NCBI GenBank assembly: GCA_911728435.2
Contig: OU452199.1
Coordinates: forward strand, 18,734,860 to 18,798,859
Source of the DNA: Apoderus coryli
Taxonomy: Eukaryota; Arthropoda; Insecta; Coleoptera; Attelabidae
Reading direction: 5' to 3'
DNA length: 64,000 bases
Of this stretch, positions 6,649 through 52,127 are shown in pieces; the first letter of the stretch is position 1; each line of letters starts with the position of its first letter. The translations under genes and the position numbers were made by a program. The notes beneath the pieces were generated by a model. The model had not been told where the DNA came from, did not search any database, and saw only the letters and a list, made by a program, of their open reading frames with translations.

Positions 6649-9479
6649 ATGACTCAAAACTTGCAGTGTGTTTATCAGAATGTTAGGGGTCTTAATACTA
6701 AAATTGACATATTTTTTTCATCCGTCAGTGATCTGCATTTCGATATCGTGGCACTCACAGAAACTTGGCTTCATTCCGACGTTGGTGATGGTGAGATTTT
6801 CCCAAGTGATTACCAGGTGTTCCGAAAAGACCGAAACTTTGTCACTACTGGTTTAACCACTGGTGGGGGTGTTTTGTTGGCAATTCGTAACGAAATAAAG
6901 ATTAAACTCATAAACACAAATATTTTAGCTACTGAGTTTCCATATATTGACTTTTTAGCATGTAAGTGTTTTATATCTCATATATCTTTTTGTATTTTAG
7001 TTGTTTATATACCTCCAAAAGTGCATTTCGATGTTTTGGAATTGTTTCTTGAGTCGCTTGTTCAATTTGAAGTATTTCATAATGAAAAAATTTTATTTTT
7101 AGGGGATTTTAACGTAGGTTTGTTTTCGAGAAATGATATGAGCGATCGAGGAACGTTGATTTTAAGAAATTTTATCGATTTTTTGAAATGTCTCAGTACA
7201 ATGCTATTTGCAATATTGATGATCGCCTTCTTGACCTAGTTATTTCTAATGTTTTATGTCATGTTATTCGTAATAATTGTCCTTTAGTTGAAGAGGATTA
7301 TTTTCATCCATGTTTGATTGTTAGCGTTTCATTGCTCTCAGGTAAGCGACAAAAACGTTTTACTAGTAATGCAAATAATCCATCATATAACTTTAAAAAA
7401 GCAAATTTTCATGCTTTGTATAACGCGGTGTTGGATGCGGACTGGTCGGAGTTACGACATATTCCTAATGTTGATACATGTGTTTCTAGGTTCTATAGCA
7501 TCTTGAATGCGATTAATGAGTGTAATGTTCCTAAGTGTATGGTATTCAGGCGTAGTTTTCCTTCCTGGTACACATCGAATATAATTGCAAATATCAAAAA
7601 AAAAGAAAAAGTATTTAAAAAGTTCAAGAAGACTCATAGTGAGGTTTTGTACCAACAATTTGCAACTCTTAGATCTAGATTAAAATTGGATATAAAAACT
7701 GCGTATACGTCATATATTAGTAATGTGGAAAACAGTATAAAACATAATCCCAAAGAGTTTTGGAGGTTTTTTCACTGTAAACATAAGTCTACACGATTGC
7801 CGGGTGTTATGACTTTTGGGGACGATGAATATAGTGATCCGCAGGGCGTTGTCGATGCATTCGGAACCTTTTTCCAGGGTGTATTTATTAACTCCTCAAA
7901 CGCGGATTCTGGTCATGATTGTCCTTATGTTGATTCGTTTTCGATTGAATCGGTTACTGAGGATGAAATATTAAAAGCATGCAGGAGGCTCAGTAACAGG
8001 ATGACATCAGGTCCGGATGGTCTTCCATCTTTCTTTGTAAAAGACTGTATGCCGGTTCTGGTTGGGCCGCTGTGCTTGATATTTAACTTGGCCCTTGAAA
8101 ATAAGGTATTTCCGCAGGAGTGGAAGAGGTCTAAGGTTGTTCCTATTCTGAAGTCGGGTGACAGATCTGTGATTGATAACTATCGCCCGATTTCCATTCT
8201 GTCGAATTTTGCAAAAATTTTTGAATCTGTACTATATGATCGTATTTATAGTTTTGTTAGAAATCAGATTTCCACTGTACAACATGGTTTCTTTTCCCAT
8301 AGATCTACTGTGTCTAATCTAGCGGTTCTTTCTGAAAATGTTTCTGAGGTTTTAGATCGTGGAGGCCAAATTGATGTAATATATACAGATTTCACTAAGG
8401 CATTTGACAGAATGGATCACGGCATTTTGATGCGAAAATTTGACCAGTTTGGTTTTGTTTTAAACCTAAAATTGTTTCTTCAGTCATACTTGAAAAATAG
8501 ACCTCAGTATGTTTCTCACAATGGCTACCAGTCACATACATATATAGCTTCTTCAGGAGTGCCTCAGGGATCGAACCTTGGACCCCTCTTTTTTATGTTA
8601 TTTATCAATGACCTGGAGAATGGAATGAATTGTGATCGGCTGATGTTTGCGGATGATCTCAAATTGTACAGTTCTATTGATAGTATCGTTGACTGTGCTA
8701 ACCTACAGAACAATTTGGAGCTGGTGCATCAATGGTGCGTACTAAATAAACTTTCACTTAATCCATCGAAGTGCAAATATATCAGTTTTACGCGCAAGAG
8801 GGTGATCATTGATTACGTTTATTCCATTGATCAGGTGCAAATCTCACGATGTGAATCTGTCACTGATTTAGGAATTATATTTGATTCGAAATTTACGTTT
8901 GCTGAGCATATCAATTATAAGACACTAGAGGCAGGTAGGACATACGGTTTTCTGGTTAGGAATTGCAGGGGATTTCAAAACACAGATACCCTTAAAACGC
9001 TGTACTTTAGCTACGTGCGCTCTAAACTGGAATATGGGTCACTGATATGGTATCCATATTATGTGACTCATCAAAATACGGTCGAAAAAGTGCAACGTAG
9101 ATTTTTGAAGTACTTAATGTATAAAGCAGATGGTCATTATCCTCCAAGGGGTACTGACTACCAATTAATGACGGATCGATTTGAGATACCAAGTCTTGAA
9201 CTTAGAAGGAAAATAAATTCTTTGCGATTTCTTTACAATTTAGTTCACTCCAATATAGATTGTTCCCACTTGCTTTCAAGAATTAATTTCAACGTTCCAA
9301 GGCAGCATATAAGGTCCAGTACAACATTTTATTGTGGTTATGCTAGGACGAATCTTATGTTGAGATCTCCTATTTCTATTTGTACCAGAAACTACAATCT
9401 TATGTGTAAACATTGTGATATTTTTTCGTGTAGTGTTAAAGAAATTATGGATTGTGCCGTGTCTCATGTTACTGATTAG
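6649..9479 (+). pseudogene. LINE ORF2 (endonuclease plus reverse transcriptase) with one frameshift
   Basis: The first frame (6649-7239) is an APE-type endonuclease: YQNVRGLNTK, LTETWLHSD, GGGVLLAIRN, VVYIPPK and FLGDFN. The frame then shifts by one base near 7188 and continues to 9479. There the endonuclease ends with RLLDLVISN and EEDYFHPCL; the residue expected to be the catalytic His may be Phe. The reverse transcriptase carries SGPDGLPSFF, VVPILKSGDRS, YRPISILSNF, YTDFTKAFDRMD, SGVPQGSNLGP and MFADDLKLYS (catalytic ADD). A thumb and C-terminal tail follow. The shift fits a single-base loss, so this copy is probably not autonomous but is otherwise close to intact. It belongs to the CR1/Jockey group in the broad sense; the clade is not fixed. 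Confidence 0.85.
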
Positions 9480-10230: not shown

Positions 10231-12110
10231 TGCCTAGAAAACACTCTGAAACATACCGTTAGATACCTGACCTGAAAGAAACAATATTAATTGGTGTCCT
10301 AATCCTGTGGATTCCTTCGTCAGAGTTGACTCCTCGGTCTCCGGTACCGTCTGGCACCGTCTTCTACGTTGTAGTTGACAGCTTCGCGAATCAGTGGGTT
10401 TGCATGGGTCTCTGCCATTGCAAAGACCTTCTGGGCTCTCAACCTCATGACGTCCCTCAGGGCGTCGAGTTTGAGGTCCCTTCGGATCTGTGCGTTTGAC
10501 ACAAACCAGGATGCATCCTTCTTGCCTTGTTCTCCGTGGCCTCCAATCGTTCCAGTTACGATGGTGCCGCGTATCCCCATGCTGAACTGGCATAGGTCAA
10601 GGCAGGTCGCACGACTGCCTTAACCATTTGGAGCTTGACCTGTAAGGGCATCTTGCTCCTTCTGCAGATCATCGGGTAGAGCTTCGAAATGATGCCTTTG
10701 GCATTCGCGATGCTCTTCTCGATGTGCAGTCTCCATGACAGGGATCTGTCCAAAGTTACCCCCAGGTACTTTGCAGTGTCCTGCCATTGTATGTCAGTAC
10801 CCTCGATGTTGACGAAGTCGTCGGGGCGCACTTGTCTTCTTCTGATGAGGAGCGCGGTGCTTTTCTCGGCATTAATCTTGGTCTTCCACCTGGTGCACCA
10901 TTCGGTGAAGTTGTCCGCTGCTCGCTGCAGGTAGCTTGTCACCAATTCCGCACTGCGACTGCGGGCAATCAGGGCGGTGTCGTCTGCGTAGAGTGCCAAG
11001 GTGTTCTGGTCTGTCCTTGGGATGTCGCTGGTAAAGATGGAGAAAAGATGGGGGGATAGTACAGACCCCTGCGGCACGCCAGCCTCCAGGGTCCGTGATT
11101 CCGAGACCTCCTTCCCTGTCCTGACGCGAATCTGCCTGTCCTGTAGGTAGGAGTCTGCTAGCTTGATCATCGCTGGTGGGTATCCTAAAGTGTGCATCTT
11201 ATAGATGAGTCCTTCCTGCCAGACCCTGTCGAAGGCTCTGGTCACATCCAGAAATACGATTCCCGTGATCTGGCGCCAGTTTAGTCCTTGTGCTGCATGC
11301 TCAACGAGTCTTAGCAGTTGCAACTCCGTGTTGTGATTGGCTCTGAACCCAAACTGCTCGTCGGGGATTACTTCCAGTTCATCCGAGAACTCGCGAAGTC
11401 GCCAGAGGATAATTCGTTCTGCTATCTTGGACAGTAAACTGATGAGCCTGTAGTTCTGGGGGAACTTCAGGTCCTTGCCCTGCTTAGGTAGCATCACTAC
11501 TATAGCCTCTTTCCACCTCGCAGGGAAGTGTCCCAGTTGTAAGATGCCGTTGATGATGGTCGCAATTCCTGCAATGCCCTTCCTCGGCAACAGTTTTAGC
11601 GCCTTGTTGCTAATTCCGTCGGGGCCTGTGCCTTCTTTATCTTCAGGTGATGGATTGTGCTCCGTATTTCTTCTGTGGTTGCTGGTCTTCGTGGCTCTCC
11701 TTCCATGTCCCGCCGCCTGACCTGTCTAACAAACCTGTGGGCCTCGTCCTCTAGCTCCTTGTCGTCGTCAGGATGTATATTCTCCCTACACTCCCTTTCA
11801 AGGCAGTCAGCAAATGCTTCAGCCTTTTATTGGTCCGTGTAGACGATCCTGCCTCTTTCCCCATGAATGGGGGGTACCTGAGGATTCGTGGCCCGCAGGG
11901 CTTTCATCATTTTCCATGCGCTACCGTCCTTAGTGTTTAGCTCTTCTAGCTTCCTTTGCCATTGGTTCCCACGATGTTCCCGTAATCTCAGCTTCACTTC
12001 CGCGTTGAGTCTGTTGAGATTTGCTCTGTCTCCAGGGGCTAAGGTCGTCCTGTATCTTCTCCGGGCTCGATTCTTCTCCTGAATCTTCGCTCTGATTGCA
12101 GATTTAGATC
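10230..12110 (-). pseudogene. Jockey-clade LINE, 5'-truncated and broken
   Basis: Minus strand. 11590-10556 is a 344-residue reverse transcriptase frame: PQNYRLISLLSKIAERIILW, DEQFGFRANHNTELQLLRLV, VFLDVTRAFDRVWQEG, AGVPQGSVLSPHLFSIF and LALYADDTALIA (intact YADD), then the thumb KYLGVTLDRSLSWRLHI. Upstream (about 12100-11600) another frame gives the endonuclease-RT linker, with NRLNAEVKLRLREHRGNQW, GSAWKMMKAL and the ATTEEIRSTI region. Downstream the C-terminus continues in a different frame (10580-10320). The GC content is visibly higher than in surrounding DNA, which suggests a recent arrival. The strong match to the Jockey pattern makes the clade call fairly safe. Confidence 0.8.
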
Positions 12111-12214: not shown

Positions 12215-12345
12215 CACTCGAATGTTAATTCCAGACGAGCCGTTTCGTTGATCGACAGCTCATCACTACCACTGGTTATCGGCAGGCTGTGAGATTACAA
12301 ATTCCGCTATTTACAATTAACTTATATTAGCTTATAACGCCCAAA
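12215..12345 (-). ncRNA. Decayed hammerhead-ribozyme repeat
   Basis: The minus strand carries GTGATGAGCTG ... CAACGAAACGGCTCGTC in the same order as the intact hammerheads at 30.2 and 50.8 kb, followed by a similar stem region. The first core base is changed (C to G in CUGAUGA). That base pairs with G8 in known hammerheads, and stem II has a mismatch, so the unit is expected to be inactive. It shows that the family has an older history here. Confidence 0.55.
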
Positions 12346-26004: not shown

Positions 26005-27852
26005 TTAATAATAATAATAATAATAGTCTTTATTCATGAGGTACAACTATTTACATGGAATGCGTCACAACGTCGTAATATAATACAGTGCGGTCACAAC
26101 CAAAAATACATGTATAAAAAAAAATAAATAAAAATATAAAAAACATGGATTGTATAATAACATTTCACAAAAACACCTAATCATTCACAAAATATTCATT
26201 TAACGAATAAAAACTGAATTCAAGCAACCAATCCCTTACGTTTCGTTTAATTTACTCGGAGCTGTATTCACTTTTAGATGATGGGGCAGATGATTATACA
26301 ACTTAATAGGCATTATAAGGCAACTATTTGCTGAGAGAGAGAGACGGTGTACAGGTAGTCTTAAATTTAAATTATCTCTAAGATCGTAGTTAGAAATTTG
26401 ACCTGTGCTCGTAAACCGATCAATGTTAGAATACACGTAGAACACACACTCCAAAATGTAAATTGATGTTACTGTTAGAATTTTTAGATCTTTGAATAAT
26501 TGACGGCAAGAATATCTGGCGGATTTGAATGTCATTGTTCTGATAATCCTTTTTTGCAGCACTAGTATCTCACCCACGCGACATGAGTTTCCCACAACAC
26601 GATGGAATAACAAGGACTGAATTAACATTTGCAAAATAAAATGATCGCAATTCATCAATTGAAACAAAGCTTCTCATTTTCCAAACTAAGAACGAAAGTC
26701 TGCAGAGCTTCACAGAAACGGTCTCGATTTGTTTGTACCAATTTAGGTGCGAGTCAATGTCAACACCCAGAATTTCACATATGATCTCTGTACTAGCCGG
26801 TGATCCCCGTTAACAATTCTCATACTGTAGTTCACCTCCCTTGCTGAGAAATGTATATGATTTGTTTTTTCAAAATTCAAGACTAGATCGTTATTAGTAC
26901 AATAATTCCGCATGTGTTCCAAACATTCATATCCTTTTGAACTTAAACCACTAATAGAGTCAGCAGCTATTATAGCTGAGGTATCTTCAGCAAAAAGAGT
27001 AATGTGCTTTGCAGATTTTATGTGTGTAGACATATCTGCAATGAGCAATATGAAGATTAGTGGTCCAAAATGTACTGCCCTGGGGAACGCCGACGTCCAA
27101 CTCAAGAACTGATGATTCAAAAATTTTGCCATCACGGTTGAGACTCACTTTTTGTTTTCTTTCTGATAAAAATGATGTTATCCAACTTAAGGGAGTGCCT
27201 CTAATACCGAAACCATAGAGTTTACGTAAAATCTTTTCATGATTCACCGTCTCGAAAGCTCGTGAAGAATCGAAAAATAAACCTGAACATTTTTGTCTCT
27301 CTGCCAAGCATTCCAACACTTTGCCGATGAACTGCACTATCGGGTCCTGGGTGGATAGACCCTTTCTAAATCCGAATTGGTTATTACCAATTATATTATA
27401 TTTATTCACATAATCCACAAGCCGACAGTAAAATGCATTTTCAAAAACTTTAGAGAAAACAGACAATACAGAGACGCCTCTATAATTTTGTATATGTTTC
27501 GAATCCCCTTTCTTGAATATAGGCACAACTCTGGCTAGTTTCAGTTCTTGTGGGAATTTTCCTTCAATGCAGGAACAGTTTATTAAATGTGTAAGAGTAG
27601 GTGCCACATAATCAATGACGTGTTTTAACACCGAACATGGGACACCATCGGGACCACTTGAGTTCTTCCGCGTTATTTTTTGTAAGATACTACAGATCTC
27701 GTTCTCATGTACAGGGTTAAGAAAAAAGGTGTTACCGCTAAGTTCCGGCCCTTGCTGATATAACTGGGCATCATTCGACTCGACAAGAACTTTAATAGAG
27801 TTAACAAAGTACGTATTAAAAGCCTCTGCAGGACTTCCATCAGATGGTTCAC
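26005..27852 (-). pseudogene. LINE inserted into the palindrome arm
   Basis: Minus strand. The first frame (about 27850-27000) has AEAFNTYFVNSIK, NSSGPDGVPCSVLKHVIDYV, LARVVPIFKKGDSKHIQNYR, GVSVLSVFSKVFENAFYCRL, NQFGFRKGLSTQDPIVQFIG and FFDSSRAFETVNHEKILRKL. A frame change follows. In the next frame (27135-26743) the catalytic box reads LFAEDTSAI, Glu in place of the first Asp of ADD. The C-terminus is 26667-26236 (GNSCRVGEILVLQKRIIRTM). The 3' end has a TAATAATAATAA tail at 26008-26025. It is 5'-truncated and dead. Inside the inverted arm both junctions sit in ATTAAT-rich sequence, which suggests a short target duplication. Confidence 0.75.
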
Positions 27853-28189
27853 CCTGTATATTAATAATCAAAACAAGGAGACATATTTTAATGGTCATTT
27901 GATAATCCCCTAACGTGCCTCTACTTATGGTAGAAGTATATACAGTTCCTCGTGACTCGCCCTGTATAAAAGGTGTTGATTTGAGAAAAATTATTTTTGC
28001 CTAGTTTTAGTAGTAGAACATACACAGTAATTTGCGATCAACATGTAACCTGATAGGTTGATCTGTCGATATAGTTGATTTTCCTAAGATGTTCTTGAAC
28101 TACTTTCAAAATTTCAAGATAATGTCTATTCAAACGGCAAAATGACGAATATTTATCACATACTAATCTGTTTTTTTCCAAAAAATCCA

Positions 28190-29935: not shown

Positions 29936-29978
29936 CCATTTTTAAACAAAAATAATTACTAGTATAATAAATGATTAT

Positions 29979-30330
29979 TGAGAGAGAGAGATGTTTATGG
30001 CGACATCTAGCGTGAAACACAGTTCACAAACGATGGCTGGACAAGAAGTAACAACTCAATTATATCCTATTGCCAACACTAGATGTGCCCGAATCCCCTA
30101 GCGGGGAGCCTTTATTTAAGAATTGCTTGTTACATAAAGCAACAAGACTTTAAGTTATGTTGGAAATTTGTTTCACACTACGATGCGTTCACCAGACGGC
30201 CGTTTCGTCGATCCACGACTCATCAGTGGTGATCGGCAGGCAGTGTGACCCAAATTTCCAACATTTACGAAGAGCTTATACTAGCACGAGAAATGATTGA
30301 GAGAGAGTATCTCTTTCTCAATCATTTCTC
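29979..30330 (-). ncRNA. Hammerhead-ribozyme element, full unit with terminal hairpin
   Basis: Minus strand. The core is CTGATGA (30226-30220), stem II GTCG-TGGAT-CGAC (30219-30207), GAAA (30206-30203), and the self-complementary stem III ACGGCCGT with cleavage base C at 30195. CACCA before the core pairs with TGGTG after the site (stem I), and pairing resumes further out (TCACACT with AGTGTGA, and GTTGGAAATTTG with CAAATTTCCAAC). All bases of the known type-I hammerhead core are present. One edge is an inverted partial copy forming a hairpin (CGAGAAATGATTGAGA with its complement, 30283-30330). GATTAT lies just outside both ends (29973 and 30331), a possible target duplication. Confidence 0.8.
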
Positions 30331-30737
30331 GATTATGTTATTTTGTTAGAAAAGCTAAGTTCCAAAGTTCTATACTGTGATGTTTAGAAAAAAGTGTAAG
30401 TTCAAAAATACCAAAGTCCTATGTTTTTTTAAATAAATTAATTTTTCGAAATTGGTTTGTTGTTTTGAAAATGTATTCATCAAAAACTCTTAAATTGATC
30501 GCCATTAACATCCACAATAAAATGAAAATAGAGTTGATATTTAAATTAAGGATTAAAAATCATGCAATTTTTTAAATCAATATATCTCAAAACTGGAATA
30601 ATACCACATGCAACTTTGTAATATTAGGGTGACGAGATGGAGTTTCTCTGTTTGTGTGTCTGAATGTATTCTTCCACGATAGCGCCTAAATGCTTCAACC
30701 AGTTGAGCTAAATTTTGGTATATGAGTTTGGGCTAGT

Positions 30738-31325: not shown

Positions 31326-31391
31326 TAAATATATAAAAATAATTAAAATTCTGTTTCGTTACGCAGGTCGTATATTTCAGATTATATTATA

Positions 31392-33478
31392 CAGGGTGGT
31401 CCAACGAAAAGTTTGCACCTAGCTTTTCTCTTTTTTTTGTAGTCGAATGCGAAAATGCTCGGACACGTCGATTTTGCTTTTGAGGGGGACACATTTTAAA
31501 CATATTTTTCGATCTGCGCCTTTAACCCCCTAGCGGGGGTGAGTAACAACCCTAAAATTTTAAATGGAAAGAGGGGTCTAATGACATATCATTTGAAAGG
31601 ACACAAAATTGTCTTTCTAATGATACCCTATTTGTCGAATTTTACTAAAACAGTTAATACGAAAACGACTTTAAAGACATTAAGCCGATAATTTTGGTAT
31701 TAATGAGAAATACAAATAAGTTTTAATTATTACGACTGAAAACAACTACAATCATTTCTAAATTATTTACTTTGAAGAAAAACGGGATTTCAAAAACACT
31801 ATCTTATTTATCAGAACTAAATTCCTCACTAATCGTTTGCGTTTTTTGTTGAAATAAAAACTGCAGATACGTGTAGGAAAAGAATTTACACCGTTTATTT
31901 TAGTCTTTTCATTGATTCAGTTTGGTTGCTTCTCAAGTTATTTTACTTTTACCGTACAAAATGATTTATTCCATTCTAGAACGAGTTGAAATTGTTAAAC
32001 TTTATTTTCAAAATAATAGTAGTGCTAGACTTACGGCTCGCTTATTTAATGAGAGACATCCCGATAAAAATGTGAATGATGTGTACGTTGGCAAGTTAGT
32101 TAAAAAGTTTGTAGATACCGGATCTGTCTGTAATGTAAAACACCAGCCGCAGAAACCGATCAGAAATGAAGCTGTGGAAGTCGCTGTTTTAGGGCATGTT
32201 GAAATGAATCATAGTCAAAGTACCCGTCAACTAGCTGACGCCTCAGGTGTCTCCCGTTCGTCCATAATACGAATTTTAAAAGCGTACAAATTTCATCCGT
32301 ACAAAATCAAATTAGTACAGGAACTAAATGAGGATGATCCTGATAGAAGGCTGCAATTTTGTGAAGCAATGAGCCAGCGTTTAATTGAAGATCCGCAATT
32401 ATTATTTAACATTTGTTTTTCCGACGAATGCACATTTTATTTGAATGGAGCTGTAAATAGGCACAATTGCCGTTACTGGGATGACAGTAACCCACATTTA
32501 TTCTGTGAGGTTCATACCCAGTATCCTCAAAAAATAAACGTCTGGTGTGGCATATTAGGAAATCATATTATAGGACCACTTTTTATTCCTGGAAATTTAA
32601 CTGGTGAAGTGTACCTAAACATGCTTGAAGACACAATTGATCCTTTAATAACACAAATAATAGAAGATGACCAAAATCATACTGCTGATCGGCTTTATTT
32701 CCAGCAAGATGGAGCACCTCCGCACTATGTGGCTCCTGTAAGACAGTTCTTAGATGACCGGTTCCCTGGACGGTGGATTGGAAGGAGGGGCCCAATTGAA
32801 TGGCCTGCCAGGTCACCGGATTTATCGCCTTTAGACTTTTTTCTTTGGGGGCACTTAAAAAATAAATGTTTTGCCACGAAGCCCGAGTCCATAGAAGATC
32901 TTCGCCAACGCATTACAGAAGAGTGCAGAAACATAACACCTGATATGCTACAAAATGTTAGAAATAGATTTGAACAAAATCTGTATTATTGTATGGAATC
33001 AAATGGGTCACATTTTCAACATTTGTTAATGTAACGTTTTAATAAATCAATTTAACAGCTTGTTTACTTTTTTTACAAAGCAATGTTAAAACTAACAAAC
33101 ATTGGAATGTACTAACGATTGCAGGTGTTTTCACTCGCAATAATTAAAACTTATTTGTATTTCTCATTAATACCAAAATTATCGGCTTAATGTCTTTAAA
33201 GTCGTTTTCGTATTAACTGTTTTAGTAAAATTCGACAAATAGGGTATCATTAGAAAGACAATTTTGTGTCCTTTCAAATGATATGTCATTAGACCCCTCT
33301 TTCCATTTAAAATTTTAGGGTTGTTACTCACCCCCGCTAGGGGGTTAAAGGCGCAGATCGAAAAATATGTTTAAAATGTGTCCCCCTCAAAAGCAAAATC
33401 GACGTGTCCGAGCATTTTCGCATTCGACTACAAAAAAAAGAGAAAAGCTAGGTGCAAACTTTTCGTTGGACCACCCTG
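31392..33478 (+). mobile_element. DD41D Tc1/mariner transposon with 340-bp TIRs, apparently intact
   Basis: The ends are CAGGGTGGTCCAACGAAAAG and its complement, each flanked by TA (31390-31391 and 33479-33480). The inverted repeats are 340 bp on both sides (31392-31731 and 33139-33478). Where I compared them base by base they were identical, including homopolymer lengths. They enclose one uninterrupted transposase gene. Equal-length, near-identical ends and an open gene indicate a recent and possibly still active insertion. Confidence 0.85.
31961..33034 (+). CDS. DD41D Tc1/mariner-type transposase
   Basis: 357 residues from the ATG at 31961; the frame is open from 31922 but has no ATG before this one. 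The enzyme would cut and rejoin its own ends at TA sites. Residues about 1-120 are the paired helix-turn-helix DNA-binding region (STRQLADASGVSRSSIIRIL). The catalytic core has FSDECTFYLNG (first Asp), YFQQDGAPPHY (second Asp) and WPARSPDLSPLDFFLWGHLK (third Asp). Counting residues, 41 lie between the second and third Asp, which places it in the DD41D group rather than DD34D/E. It ends CMESNGSHFQHLLM, a common C-terminus of the superfamily. All catalytic residues are present and there are no breaks. Confidence 0.88.
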   Translation: MIYSILERVEIVKLYFQNNSSARLTARLFNERHPDKNVNDVYVGKLVKKFVDTGSVCNVKHQPQKPIRNEAVEVAVLGHVEMNHSQSTRQLADASGVSRSSIIRILKAYKFHPYKIKLVQELNEDDPDRRLQFCEAMSQRLIEDPQLLFNICFSDECTFYLNGAVNRHNCRYWDDSNPHLFCEVHTQYPQKINVWCGILGNHIIGPLFIPGNLTGEVYLNMLEDTIDPLITQIIEDDQNHTADRLYFQQDGAPPHYVAPVRQFLDDRFPGRWIGRRGPIEWPARSPDLSPLDFFLWGHLKNKCFATKPESIEDLRQRITEECRNITPDMLQNVRNRFEQNLYYCMESNGSHFQHLLM

Positions 33479-33904
33479 TATATTGTGGGGAAAGTTTTGG
33501 GGCGACACAACCGATTTTTTTAAATGCTATAACTTTGATTTTCGATTCGAAAATTTAACGGAATTTGTATTTGTGAGAGCGCCAGAGCAAAATAGGATGA
33601 TCATGGACGCAAATTGGATTAGTAGGTTATAATATGGAACAATAAAATTCATTGAAATAGAAAGCTAAATTGGTTTGTTCGTACATCATATGTTGTAAAA
33701 GCCCATTAAAAATGCAGTGAAACGATAATAATGATTCTCATCCCTAAATGCATATACACACTTCTCCAAAATTTTTGGACCCCCATATATTTTTCAAAAT
33801 CTTATTTTAAGTCAAGACGGTTATTAATTTGTTATGCAAATTGGCTGAATTAAATTTTAATTGAACAAGAAAAAAAATACAAACGAAAAATAGTGCATAA
33901 TAAA

Positions 33905-49779: not shown

Positions 49780-49874
49780 ATATATGCATAACCTGCGTAA
49801 TGGAGCAGAATTTGAATAATTGTTATTGTTATAATTGTATTATTTTCATCATTTCTAATAAAGTAACGCAAAAA
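49780..49874 (+). repeat. Duplicated transposase-end segment, left copy
   Basis: Encodes the C-terminal LRNGAEFE and reads on into GTATTATTTTCATCATTTC and TAATAAAGTAACG. The same 95 bp occur in the same orientation at 52033-52127, directly flanking the inserted palindrome. Confidence 0.7.
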
Positions 49875-49876
49875 TA

Positions 49877-52030
49877 CAGGGTGTCCTACGGTGGCAACCC
49901 ATTAGATTATTTCAGAAACTACTTCGAATTGAATTTTGAAAATTTCAGTGTCTATATTATCAAATATGCTCTACACAAATAATATAATAGCAACGGCAAA
50001 GCACTTCCGGTTATACCGGAAGTTGATGGCAACTTTGTTATTTTAAACGGAACACCCTATATATTATTACATTTTTGGATTCTAAATAAGATTCCAGACA
50101 TATTTCATGTATCATGTCCTATACCTAACGTCAGTCGTTTTTGACTTCTATCAAGATTTATGTCAAAATTGACAATTTAGGGCTCCATAAGAATTCCGTT
50201 TTTTCCTTGTAAATCAGTATTTAATAATTATTTTGCAGGTATTTTCTTATCAGGTGGGATCTTCTTTTTCGAACTGACAAGACATTTTCTGATTCGTTTA
50301 TACAGGGTGGTCAAAAAATTATATTAAAAACGGTTCAAGAAAAACAGTTGAAAGTCAATTTTTTGAAATGGAATGGGTATATTATTATTATTTTATCTTC
50401 CTTAGCATTAAAAAATAATGCAATTTTGTAATAGGTTATCATTTTCTAAAATGCATAGTTTTCGAAATATCGTCATTTTAAAAAGGGGTCATATCGAACA
50501 ATTAAATTAGTTTTAAGAATTGCTTGTTACATAAAGCAACAAGACTTTCAGTTATGTTGGAAATTTGTTTCACACTACCATGCTTCCACCAGACGGCCGT
50601 TTCGTAGATCCACGACTCATCAGTGGTGATCGGCAGGCAGTGTGACCCAAATTTCCAACATTTACAAAGAGCTTATACTAGCACAAGAATTGATTGAGAG
50701 AGTATAAGCTCTTTGTAAATGTTGGAAATTTGGGTCACACTGCCTGCCGATCACCACTGATGAGTCGTGGATCGACGAAACGGCCGTCTGGTGAAAGCAT
50801 GGTAGTGTGAAACAAATTTCCAACATAACTTAAAGTTTTGTTCCTGTATGTAACAAGCAATTCTTAAAGAAAGCCTCCCTGCTAGGGGATTCGGGCGCAT
50901 CTAGTGTTGGCAATAGGGTATAATGGAGTTGTTACTTCTTGTCCGGCCATTGTCTGTGAACTGTGTTTCACCCGGCATATTGCCTGTTCACGCTAGATGT
51001 CGCCAAAAACATCTCTCTCTAAATTAGTTTTGTTATCGTTAGTTGATTAACTTTTTTTAGTTGAAAATTTATTTAGTTTAATCTTCTGTTCATTTCTGCT
51101 GTATTATTTTAAATTTTAGTCTTAGTTCGTTGTAATACTTGATTTGTATACCACCCAACCTGCTCTAAATGATTTCTCAAAATTCTTCCTAATTTCTCTA
51201 GTCATCGTTAGCAAATGGGGGTTTCTCTCGTTAAATACTCTACAGGTGATATTAATCACTTTATTTTATTCTCCATGAATTAATAATAAATTTATAATAT
51301 CAATCAGTATTTTTCATTTTTATTAATTTGACGTTTAGTTTGACGTTAAAATGACAATAATTTCATGGCTAACTAAATTAATTAGCTAGCTTCCAGAGAT
51401 ACAACGGTAGGCGCTGCAGAAAAAATTAAAATGACGATATTTCGAAAACTATGCATTTTAGAAAATGATAACCTATTACAAAATTGCATTATTTTTTAAT
51501 GCTAAGGAAGATAAAATAATAATAATATGCCCATTCCATTTGAAAAAATTGACTTTCAACTGTTTTTCTTGAACCGTTTTCAATATAATTTTTTGACCAC
51601 CCTGTATAAACTAATCAGAAAATGTCTTGTCAATTCGAAAAAGAAGATCCCACCTGATAAGAAAATACCTGCAAAATAATTATTAAATACTGATTTACAA
51701 GGAAAAAACGGAATTCTTATGGAGCCCTAAATTGTCAATTTTGACATAAATCTTGATAGAAGTCAAAAACGACTGACGTTAGGTATAGGGCATGATACAT
51801 GAAATATGTCTGAAATCTTATTTAGAATCCAAGAATGTAATAATATATAGGGTGTTCCGTTTAAAATAACAAAGTTGCCATCAACTTCCGGTATAACCGG
51901 AAGTGCTATGCAGCTGCTATTATATTATTTGAGTAGAGCCTATTTGACAATATAGACACTGAAATTTTCAAAATTCAATTCGAAGTAGTTTCTGAAATAA
52001 TCTAATGGGTTGCTATTGTAGGACACCCTG
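49877..52030. mobile_element. Palindromic element with 605-bp arms
   Basis: The arms 49877-50481 and 51426-52030 are reverse complements of equal length, starting CAGGGTGTCCTACGGTGGCA and ending with its near complement; TA flanks both. Each arm contains the hairpin CTTCCGGTTATACCGGAAG (near 50010 and 51890) and GGTGGTCAAAAAATTATATT (near 50305). The outer 185 bp alone look like a complete small MITE (ending GGAACACCCTATATA), so the arms may be composite. The 944-bp centre carries a hammerhead-ribozyme element. No transposase. Confidence 0.8.
50515..51020 (+). ncRNA. Hammerhead-ribozyme retroelement, head-to-head dimer with 11-bp TSD
   Basis: A 506-bp insertion flanked by AAATTAGTTTT on both sides (50504-50514 and 51021-51031). 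It consists of an inverted partial unit (50515-50698, minus) and a longer unit (50703-51020, plus). The plus unit has CTGATGA (50757-50763), stem II GTCG-TGGAT-CGAC (50764-50776), GAAA (50777-50780), stem III ACGGCCGT (50780-50787) and the predicted cleavage after C 50788. Stem I is 5 bp (50752-50756 with 50789-50793), continued by 7 bp (50735-50741 with 50804-50810) and 12 bp (50721-50732 with 50813-50824). The minus unit has the same core (50623-50592) with one stem-II mismatch. Type I, very short stem III. Confidence 0.85.
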
Positions 52031-52032
52031 TA

Positions 52033-52127
52033 TATGCATGAGCTTCGTAACGGAGCAGAATTTTAATAATTGTTATTATTATAATTGTATTATTTTCATC
52101 ATTTCCAATAAACTAACGTAACAAACC
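52033..52127 (+). repeat. Duplicated transposase-end segment, right copy
   Basis: Reads CTTCGTAACGGAGCAGAATT and on to TTCCAATAAACTAACG, parallel to 49780-49874. After it the element continues to its right end, which the left copy does not. Confidence 0.7.

Follow-up and report, generated by a model that had tools for sequence, protein, structure and literature searches.

The element inserted at positions 50504-51031 of the window, by which we mean the whole stretch of 64,000 nucleotides analysed here (C5:18734860-18798859), is a hammerhead retrozyme of the metazoan kind, with units of 333-336 bp. Our analysis of its relatives in the 428-Mb genome (129 contigs searched) leads us to consider it likely that this non-autonomous element is mobilised by Penelope-type machinery, which would produce one cDNA per target strand and begin synthesis at two start sites. 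Our data add that insertions with two arms generally draw on two sites, a different one for each arm; these sites are ~154 nt apart in the retrozyme and ~33 nt apart in the Penelope-like elements (PLEs) of the same genome.

The hammerhead insertion and its target site

The insertion consists of one full and one inverted partial hammerhead unit. Its parts, its surroundings and two further copies in the window are listed below; sites I and II denote the two places in the unit where the family's outer ends cluster.

12231-12331, - strand: decayed third copy with a damaged core (75% identity; recognised from its sequence)
29977-30331, - strand: second copy, with one unit and an opposite arm of 23 bp (core at 30226-30195)
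49874-50481, + strand: left inverted repeat around the insertion site (97.2% identity with 51426-52033)
50504-50514, no strand: left copy of the target-site duplication, AAATTAGTTTT (exact repeat; empty site at 216 places)
50512-50702, - strand: inverted arm with site I as its outer end (mapping on monomer A, 336 bp)
50586-50629, - strand: inverted type I hammerhead with one stem-II mismatch (RF00163 28.4 bits; 1 mismatch to the pattern)
50701-51024, + strand: forward arm, mapped on monomer A, unit positions 249 to 235
50751-50794, + strand: type I hammerhead, core 50757-50788 (RF00163 33.8 bits; exact pattern)
50865-50868, + strand: site I inside the forward arm, internal here (from outer-end positions in 67 loci and the window copies)
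50893-51004, + strand: hairpin domain predicted to lie between the two sites, from circular folds of monomers A and B and an alignment fold of three sequences
51005-51020, + strand: site II end ACATCTCTCTCT, preceding the duplication
51021-51031, no strand: right copy of the target-site duplication (exact repeat; empty site)
51426-52033, - strand: right inverted repeat around the insertion site (97.2% identity with 49874-50481)

An earlier note on this DNA had described a complete type I core on the + strand and an inverted unit with a single stem-II mismatch, and both are present: the exact pattern lies at 50757-50788, with cleavage expected after 50788, and the inverted core (50623-50592) differs by one stem-II base. 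With up to three mismatches allowed, the core pattern had three matches in the window against a mean of 0.00 in 100 shuffles, the third being the second copy at 29977-30331. The note had named the lack of a hammerhead hit above threshold as grounds for refutation, and taken literally this applies here. The + strand hammerhead scored 33.8 bits with RF00163 (E 1.5e-6 for 801 bp, relaxed threshold) against a gathering score of 34, and the inverted one stayed below it as well (28.4 bits, relaxed threshold); at the gathering score, Rfam reported no hammerhead in the window and none in the multi-unit loci L057 and L080 either. We give this sub-gathering score less weight because the core recurs in thousands of copies. 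The lowest-energy fold of the 56-nt core region is other than the hammerhead (-19.3 versus -8.6 kcal/mol, in a calculation that ignores tertiary contacts). Several miRNA families (MIR841 and others) scored higher than RF00163 over the palindrome, all of them below their own gathering scores, and we rejected these matches because they reflect the inverted repeat. Eight IMG/VR contigs with type I hammerhead cores were also set aside; they fall into two sequence groups and are unlike this element outside the core.

The inverted arm runs from unit position 80 back past the unit start to position 226 of the preceding unit, and it forms a palindrome of 93.9% identity with the forward arm. The latter has site II as its outer end, with its final bases overlapping the duplication, and carries site I internally, ~77-80 nt past the cleavage point. 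The 11-bp duplication claimed for this locus is exact on both sides (AAATTAGTTTT at 50504-50514 and 51021-51031), and inclusion of the preceding T extends it to 12 bp. When both flanks were fused across one copy of the duplication and used as a genome-wide query (at most three mismatches), the uninterrupted target with a single AAATTAGTTTT was found at 216 places (109 + 107), against 0 for the reversed control. The repeat is therefore a genuine target-site duplication inside repeated host sequence. The insertion is enclosed by 608-bp inverted repeats (49874-52033 in all), and the stretch inside these repeats has the 216 uninterrupted genome matches.

Other mobile sequences occur in the window as well. 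The region 31388-33482 holds a 372-codon open frame (31916-33034, DUF4817), which we take to be mariner/Tc1-like, between 366-bp inverted repeats of 99% identity; the element is apparently recent. Reverse-transcriptase (RVT_1) frames at 7137-9479, 10556-11725 and 26987-28000 appear, as we infer, to be LINE-like.

Genome-wide family and classification

Counting of genome copies, a step proposed in the earlier note, yielded 3139 hammerhead cores with at most three mismatches (1563 + 1576) against 0 for a reversed-pattern control. Our locus sample comprises 67 loci (L016-L082) and derives from the 100 exact matches listed among these 3139 cores; all 100 lie within the first 16.9 Mb of contig C1, and all are inside the 67 loci. 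The rule for the outer ends presented below refers to this one regional sample, namely the 67 loci in C1 together with two window copies. The family has two main subfamilies, A (336 bp, the window type) and B (333 bp), with the core and parts of the remainder in common. Tandem units, which had also been sought, are present: neighbouring cores of the same orientation in the 67 loci are 331-341 bp apart, the exceptions being L050 (476 bp) and L025 (3304 bp).

The claim that the unit has no coding sequence held up in so far as no sizeable frame is present. The longest ATG frame of the insert comprises 54 codons, and those of the repeated monomers, whose GC contents are 0.44 and 0.46, comprise 49 and 56. 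As an open reading frame for reverse transcriptase and GIY-YIG is absent from the element, we do not class it as a PLE, and no LTR layout was found in the mapped arms. The type I core, the unit size in the absence of a sizeable open reading frame and duplications longer than 4 bp place the element with the metazoan non-LTR retrozymes, which are described, with insects mentioned, in the accessible text of Cervera and de la Pena (2020; PMC7229834). Further likenesses are the repetition of short units in tandem (here 333-336 bp), a GC content below 50% (here 44-46%) and the presence of PLEs in the same genome. Plant LTR retrozymes have 4-bp target-site duplications. The head-to-head arrays and the two fixed outer ends found here, in contrast, are unmentioned in the accessible parts of that paper (PMC7229834).

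Outer ends of the retrozyme insertions

Among the 43 pairs of neighbouring cores less than 700 bp apart in the 67 loci, nine were arranged --, 13 ++, 21 -+ (head-to-head) and none +-. The 21 against none speak against a free direction of insertion, because free choice would make -+ and +- equally common. The inverted copy is recurrent across the sampled loci and no accident of the window locus. In two-armed insertions, the RNA 3' sides of the arms face outward.

We mapped the loci on the repeated monomers and counted unit positions from the base after the cleavage point. The outer ends cluster at two positions, site I (~69-85) and site II (~228-240), ~154 nt apart in the unit; most ends fall at 77-85 and 232-240 in subfamily A and at 69-78 and 228-239 in subfamily B. 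With L077 excluded as a repeat of L076, 116 of the 122 outer ends lie in two ranges, 63 at positions 60-92 and 53 at 212-250, and six lie elsewhere; these ranges were chosen after the data had been seen and together cover 72 of ~335 unit positions.

The 75 rows of our analysis (67 loci, some with two groups, plus two window copies) divide into 49 two-armed and 26 one-armed insertions. The two arms ended at different sites, one at I and one at II, in 43 of the 49 two-armed rows (42 of 48 without L077), with site I on the left and site II on the right in 23 and the reverse in 20. The exceptions are II/II (the second window copy, WIN2, and L070a), I/I (L016) and rows with one end elsewhere (L033, L040, L073). 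Judged by eye, an unmapped short end would make both L016 and L040 I/II; we kept the automatic count. When only classified pairs are considered, 42 of 45 are I/II; independent choice would lead one to expect about half, and the corresponding chance is ~4e-10 (calculated by hand). WIN2 (29977-30331), both ends of which are near site II and whose candidate duplication measures 6 bp, is the clearest exception to the rule. Inspection by eye of the one-armed rows showed that L017, L031 and L054 possess a second, short arm of the type complementary to the first, and that in L028, L042, L060 and L075 the 5' end abuts the duplication almost directly.

The note had advised inspection of the flanks for duplications of 10-12 bp; duplications of 10-16 bp border 37 of the 48 two-armed rows, compared with 1.8% of 960 mispaired controls; for duplications of at least 8 bp, the numbers are 40 of 48 and 21%, respectively. 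The commonest length is 12. The inner junctions, at which the two arms meet, are distinct in 47 of 48 cases. Their offsets are uniform over the unit (KS p 0.90), with three of 48 at 10 nt or less (3.0 expected) and ten at 25 nt or less (7.3 expected); an overlap of 1-8 bases is found at 24 of 48 and an insert at 20. Inner junctions are shared only by L016/L020 and L076/L077, which look like copies of one locus because their flanks are common within each pair. The longest arms (1244 + 858 bp in L057; 518 + 1254 bp in L080) reach up to ~3.7 units. As such long arms are continuous across the cleavage point, their template must have been a circle or an uncut multimer.

These data bear on the manner of insertion. 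Constant outer ends and a constant duplication length would be expected if DNA transposition moved a palindromic element of fixed form whose ends were I and II, yet by eye there is no inverted repeat between the two ends, nearly all inner junctions (47/48) differ from each other, the number of units varies, and one-armed insertions occur; we regard this explanation as highly improbable. The preference of the earlier note for RNA-mediated insertion over DNA transposition is supported, and its description of a small RNA-mediated ribozyme element agrees with the copies, the tandem units, the short frames, the duplications and the varied inner junctions.

A rival explanation is twin priming in the style of LINE-1, in which the first cDNA starts from the RNA 3' end and the second internally, which results in a 5' inversion. 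Were the second cDNA to start from the other target strand wherever a microhomology inside the RNA allows it, the head-to-head order with its 5' inverted arm, the duplications and the overlaps of 1-8 bases at half of the joints (24/48) would all be accounted for. In the retrozyme, however, the starting point of the second arm is fixed, with 116 of 122 outer ends in two ranges, and both arms may be longer than one unit (L038, L057, L080), features that set these insertions apart from twin-primed LINE-1 copies. We therefore find it rather improbable that second-strand priming took place in this manner.

Penelope-like elements of the same genome

A GIY-YIG profile (PF01541) scored 150 of 1260 candidate places. 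Neighbouring scored places less than 5 kb apart were arranged -+ in 18 of 18 cases, and up to 10 kb in 19 of 19; extension to 20 kb adds one ++ pair. Of the 19 PLE pairs, L085 was read whole and the 18 others at their outer ends. L085, a palindrome of 4.8 kb (99.6% identity), has a 12-bp duplication and contains RVT_1 and GIY-YIG domains. Among named sequences, beetle proteins (Molorchus, Aromia, Tribolium) are some of the closest relatives of the PLE protein. A minimal hammerhead pattern is located near each outer end of L085, with just 18.3 bits for RF00163 (E 0.052).

In 12 of the 19 pairs, a tail of ~33 nt follows GTCAGTTTA on exactly one arm (L085, L088, L090, L092, L098, L100, L106, L108, L110, L112, L114, L116), on the left in five and on the right in seven. 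Their duplications measure 12-14 bp in 11 pairs; that of L112 has 8 bp. In L118 the tail is missing and one arm is shortened, and six pairs were unreadable (ends unresolved or not reached in L086, L094, L096, L102 and L104; L120 unalignable). Inner offsets in five PLE pairs were 7, 20, 32, 34 and 398 nt, nearer to symmetry than those of the retrozymes. Two of five PLE palindromes, C13:584707-587200 (1235/1234, determined by hand) and C1:11605962-11610861 (2437/2439), have near-equal arms although the arm starts are ~33 nt apart; the three others differ.

Much of this layout has precedents. The accessible text on rotifer Penelope elements reports a mostly head-to-head arrangement and an inverted pLTR, with one of the inverted pLTRs bearing a tail (PMC3846280). 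For a lizard PLE, the available part of PMC11167929 describes a purified enzyme, predicted to be a dimer, that cleaves and extends both strands at AT-rich DNA, with reverse transcription beginning inside the RNA downstream of the hammerhead and the tail representing the stretch between two start sites. The retrozyme resembles these PLEs in its partial copies arranged head-to-head, its short duplications and an internal start of reverse transcription; they include Poseidon of Anolis, for which the same sources give an optional tail of ~31-40 bp at one end and, in the Anolis element, a hammerhead (PMC3846280, PMC11167929). The retrozyme differs from PLEs in that it is devoid of a reverse transcriptase/endonuclease open reading frame, its end sites are ~154 nt and not ~33 nt apart, and nearly every two-armed insertion uses both sites.

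Self-priming, proposed for rotifer Penelope elements according to the accessible part of PMC3846280, offers another route to such structures: one arm would be copied by fold-back from the other, or from an antisense template. The near-palindromic inner junctions in four of the five PLE copies fit this notion. The inner junctions of the retrozyme are asymmetric, however, with offsets uniform over the unit, and this independence argues against one arm having been copied from the other; moreover, arm-from-arm copying should give equal outer ends, but the observed ends differ in both retrozyme and PLE. We judge fold-back to be unlikely.

The features of Penelope-type insertion, i.e., head-to-head arms, an extension at one end and a short duplication, are present in both the retrozyme and the PLEs of this genome. 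Since retrozyme and L085 have no sequence similarity beyond chance-level words, it is from the layout that we infer a PLE as the mobiliser, and the common mirror-image layout points to the genome's PLEs as the putative carriers of the retrozyme. The same element might instead be moved by a LINE of the genome; reverse-transcriptase frames do occur in the window, and the accessible text of PMC7229834 proposes LINEs or PLEs as mobilisers of metazoan retrozymes, with PLEs a strong candidate. Against this stands the head-to-head layout with a one-sided extension, which is that of this genome's PLEs, so that we attach little probability to a LINE as the carrier.

Predicted fold of the retrozyme unit

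In the predicted circles of monomers A and B, sites I and II flank a hairpin domain and separate it from the hammerhead arm; in A they fall in unpaired linkers, in B within hairpins that are small and weak. A and B share the base of the predicted domain. In an alignment of three sequences, 15 of 43 predicted pairs are broken in one sequence and five are changed on both sides; covariation is weak, and with three sequences the covariation term is unfavourable. Because many pairs are broken and covariation is unfavourable in so small an alignment, the hairpin domain is to be read as a prediction.

A proposed model for retrozyme and PLE insertion

The use of both sites, one per arm, and the independent inner junctions lend themselves to a simple account, in which each target strand receives one cDNA that starts from a site of its own. 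Retrozyme transcripts would be cut and closed into circles, or would remain multimers. A PLE enzyme, probably a dimer, would cut both target strands and prime one cDNA on each, with its two protomers beginning at different sites, one at I and one at II. Each cDNA would extend for up to ~3.7 units (the longest sampled arm) round or along the template, and the two cDNA ends would then be joined, with a short sequence overlap in half of the cases. An endless circular template, if true, would explain why the inner junctions of the retrozyme are random while PLE arms tend to stop near the same template position.

A broader proposition, to which we give an even chance, is that Penelope-type reverse transcriptases insert as dimers, with one cDNA per target strand from two different sites of one RNA; this rule would explain why PLEs have a tail and why copies lie head-to-head, and retrozymes would be circles fitted to it, with their sites on opposite sides of a structured domain. 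The near-symmetric inner junctions of PLEs, which are compatible with fold-back too, and the lack of a tail in L118 are points against our preferred explanation. The same is true for two statements in the available part of PMC11167929, namely that start sites do not differ between strands and that ribozyme cleavage is unneeded in vitro.

We found no published description of a head-to-head layout or of bidirectional priming for retrozymes in the titles, abstract openings and text passages of the literature accessible to us. While the layout of PLEs is partly known already, its strict form in retrozymes is apparently undescribed in print. The mobiliser of retrozymes (PMC7229834) and the replication cycle of PLEs (PMC3846280, PMC11167929) are open questions, as far as the accessible parts of these papers go. 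A countable insertion rule common to the retrozyme and the PLEs of one genome ties both together, and it predicts that, in vitro, each insertion would yield one site I product and one site II product on opposite strands.
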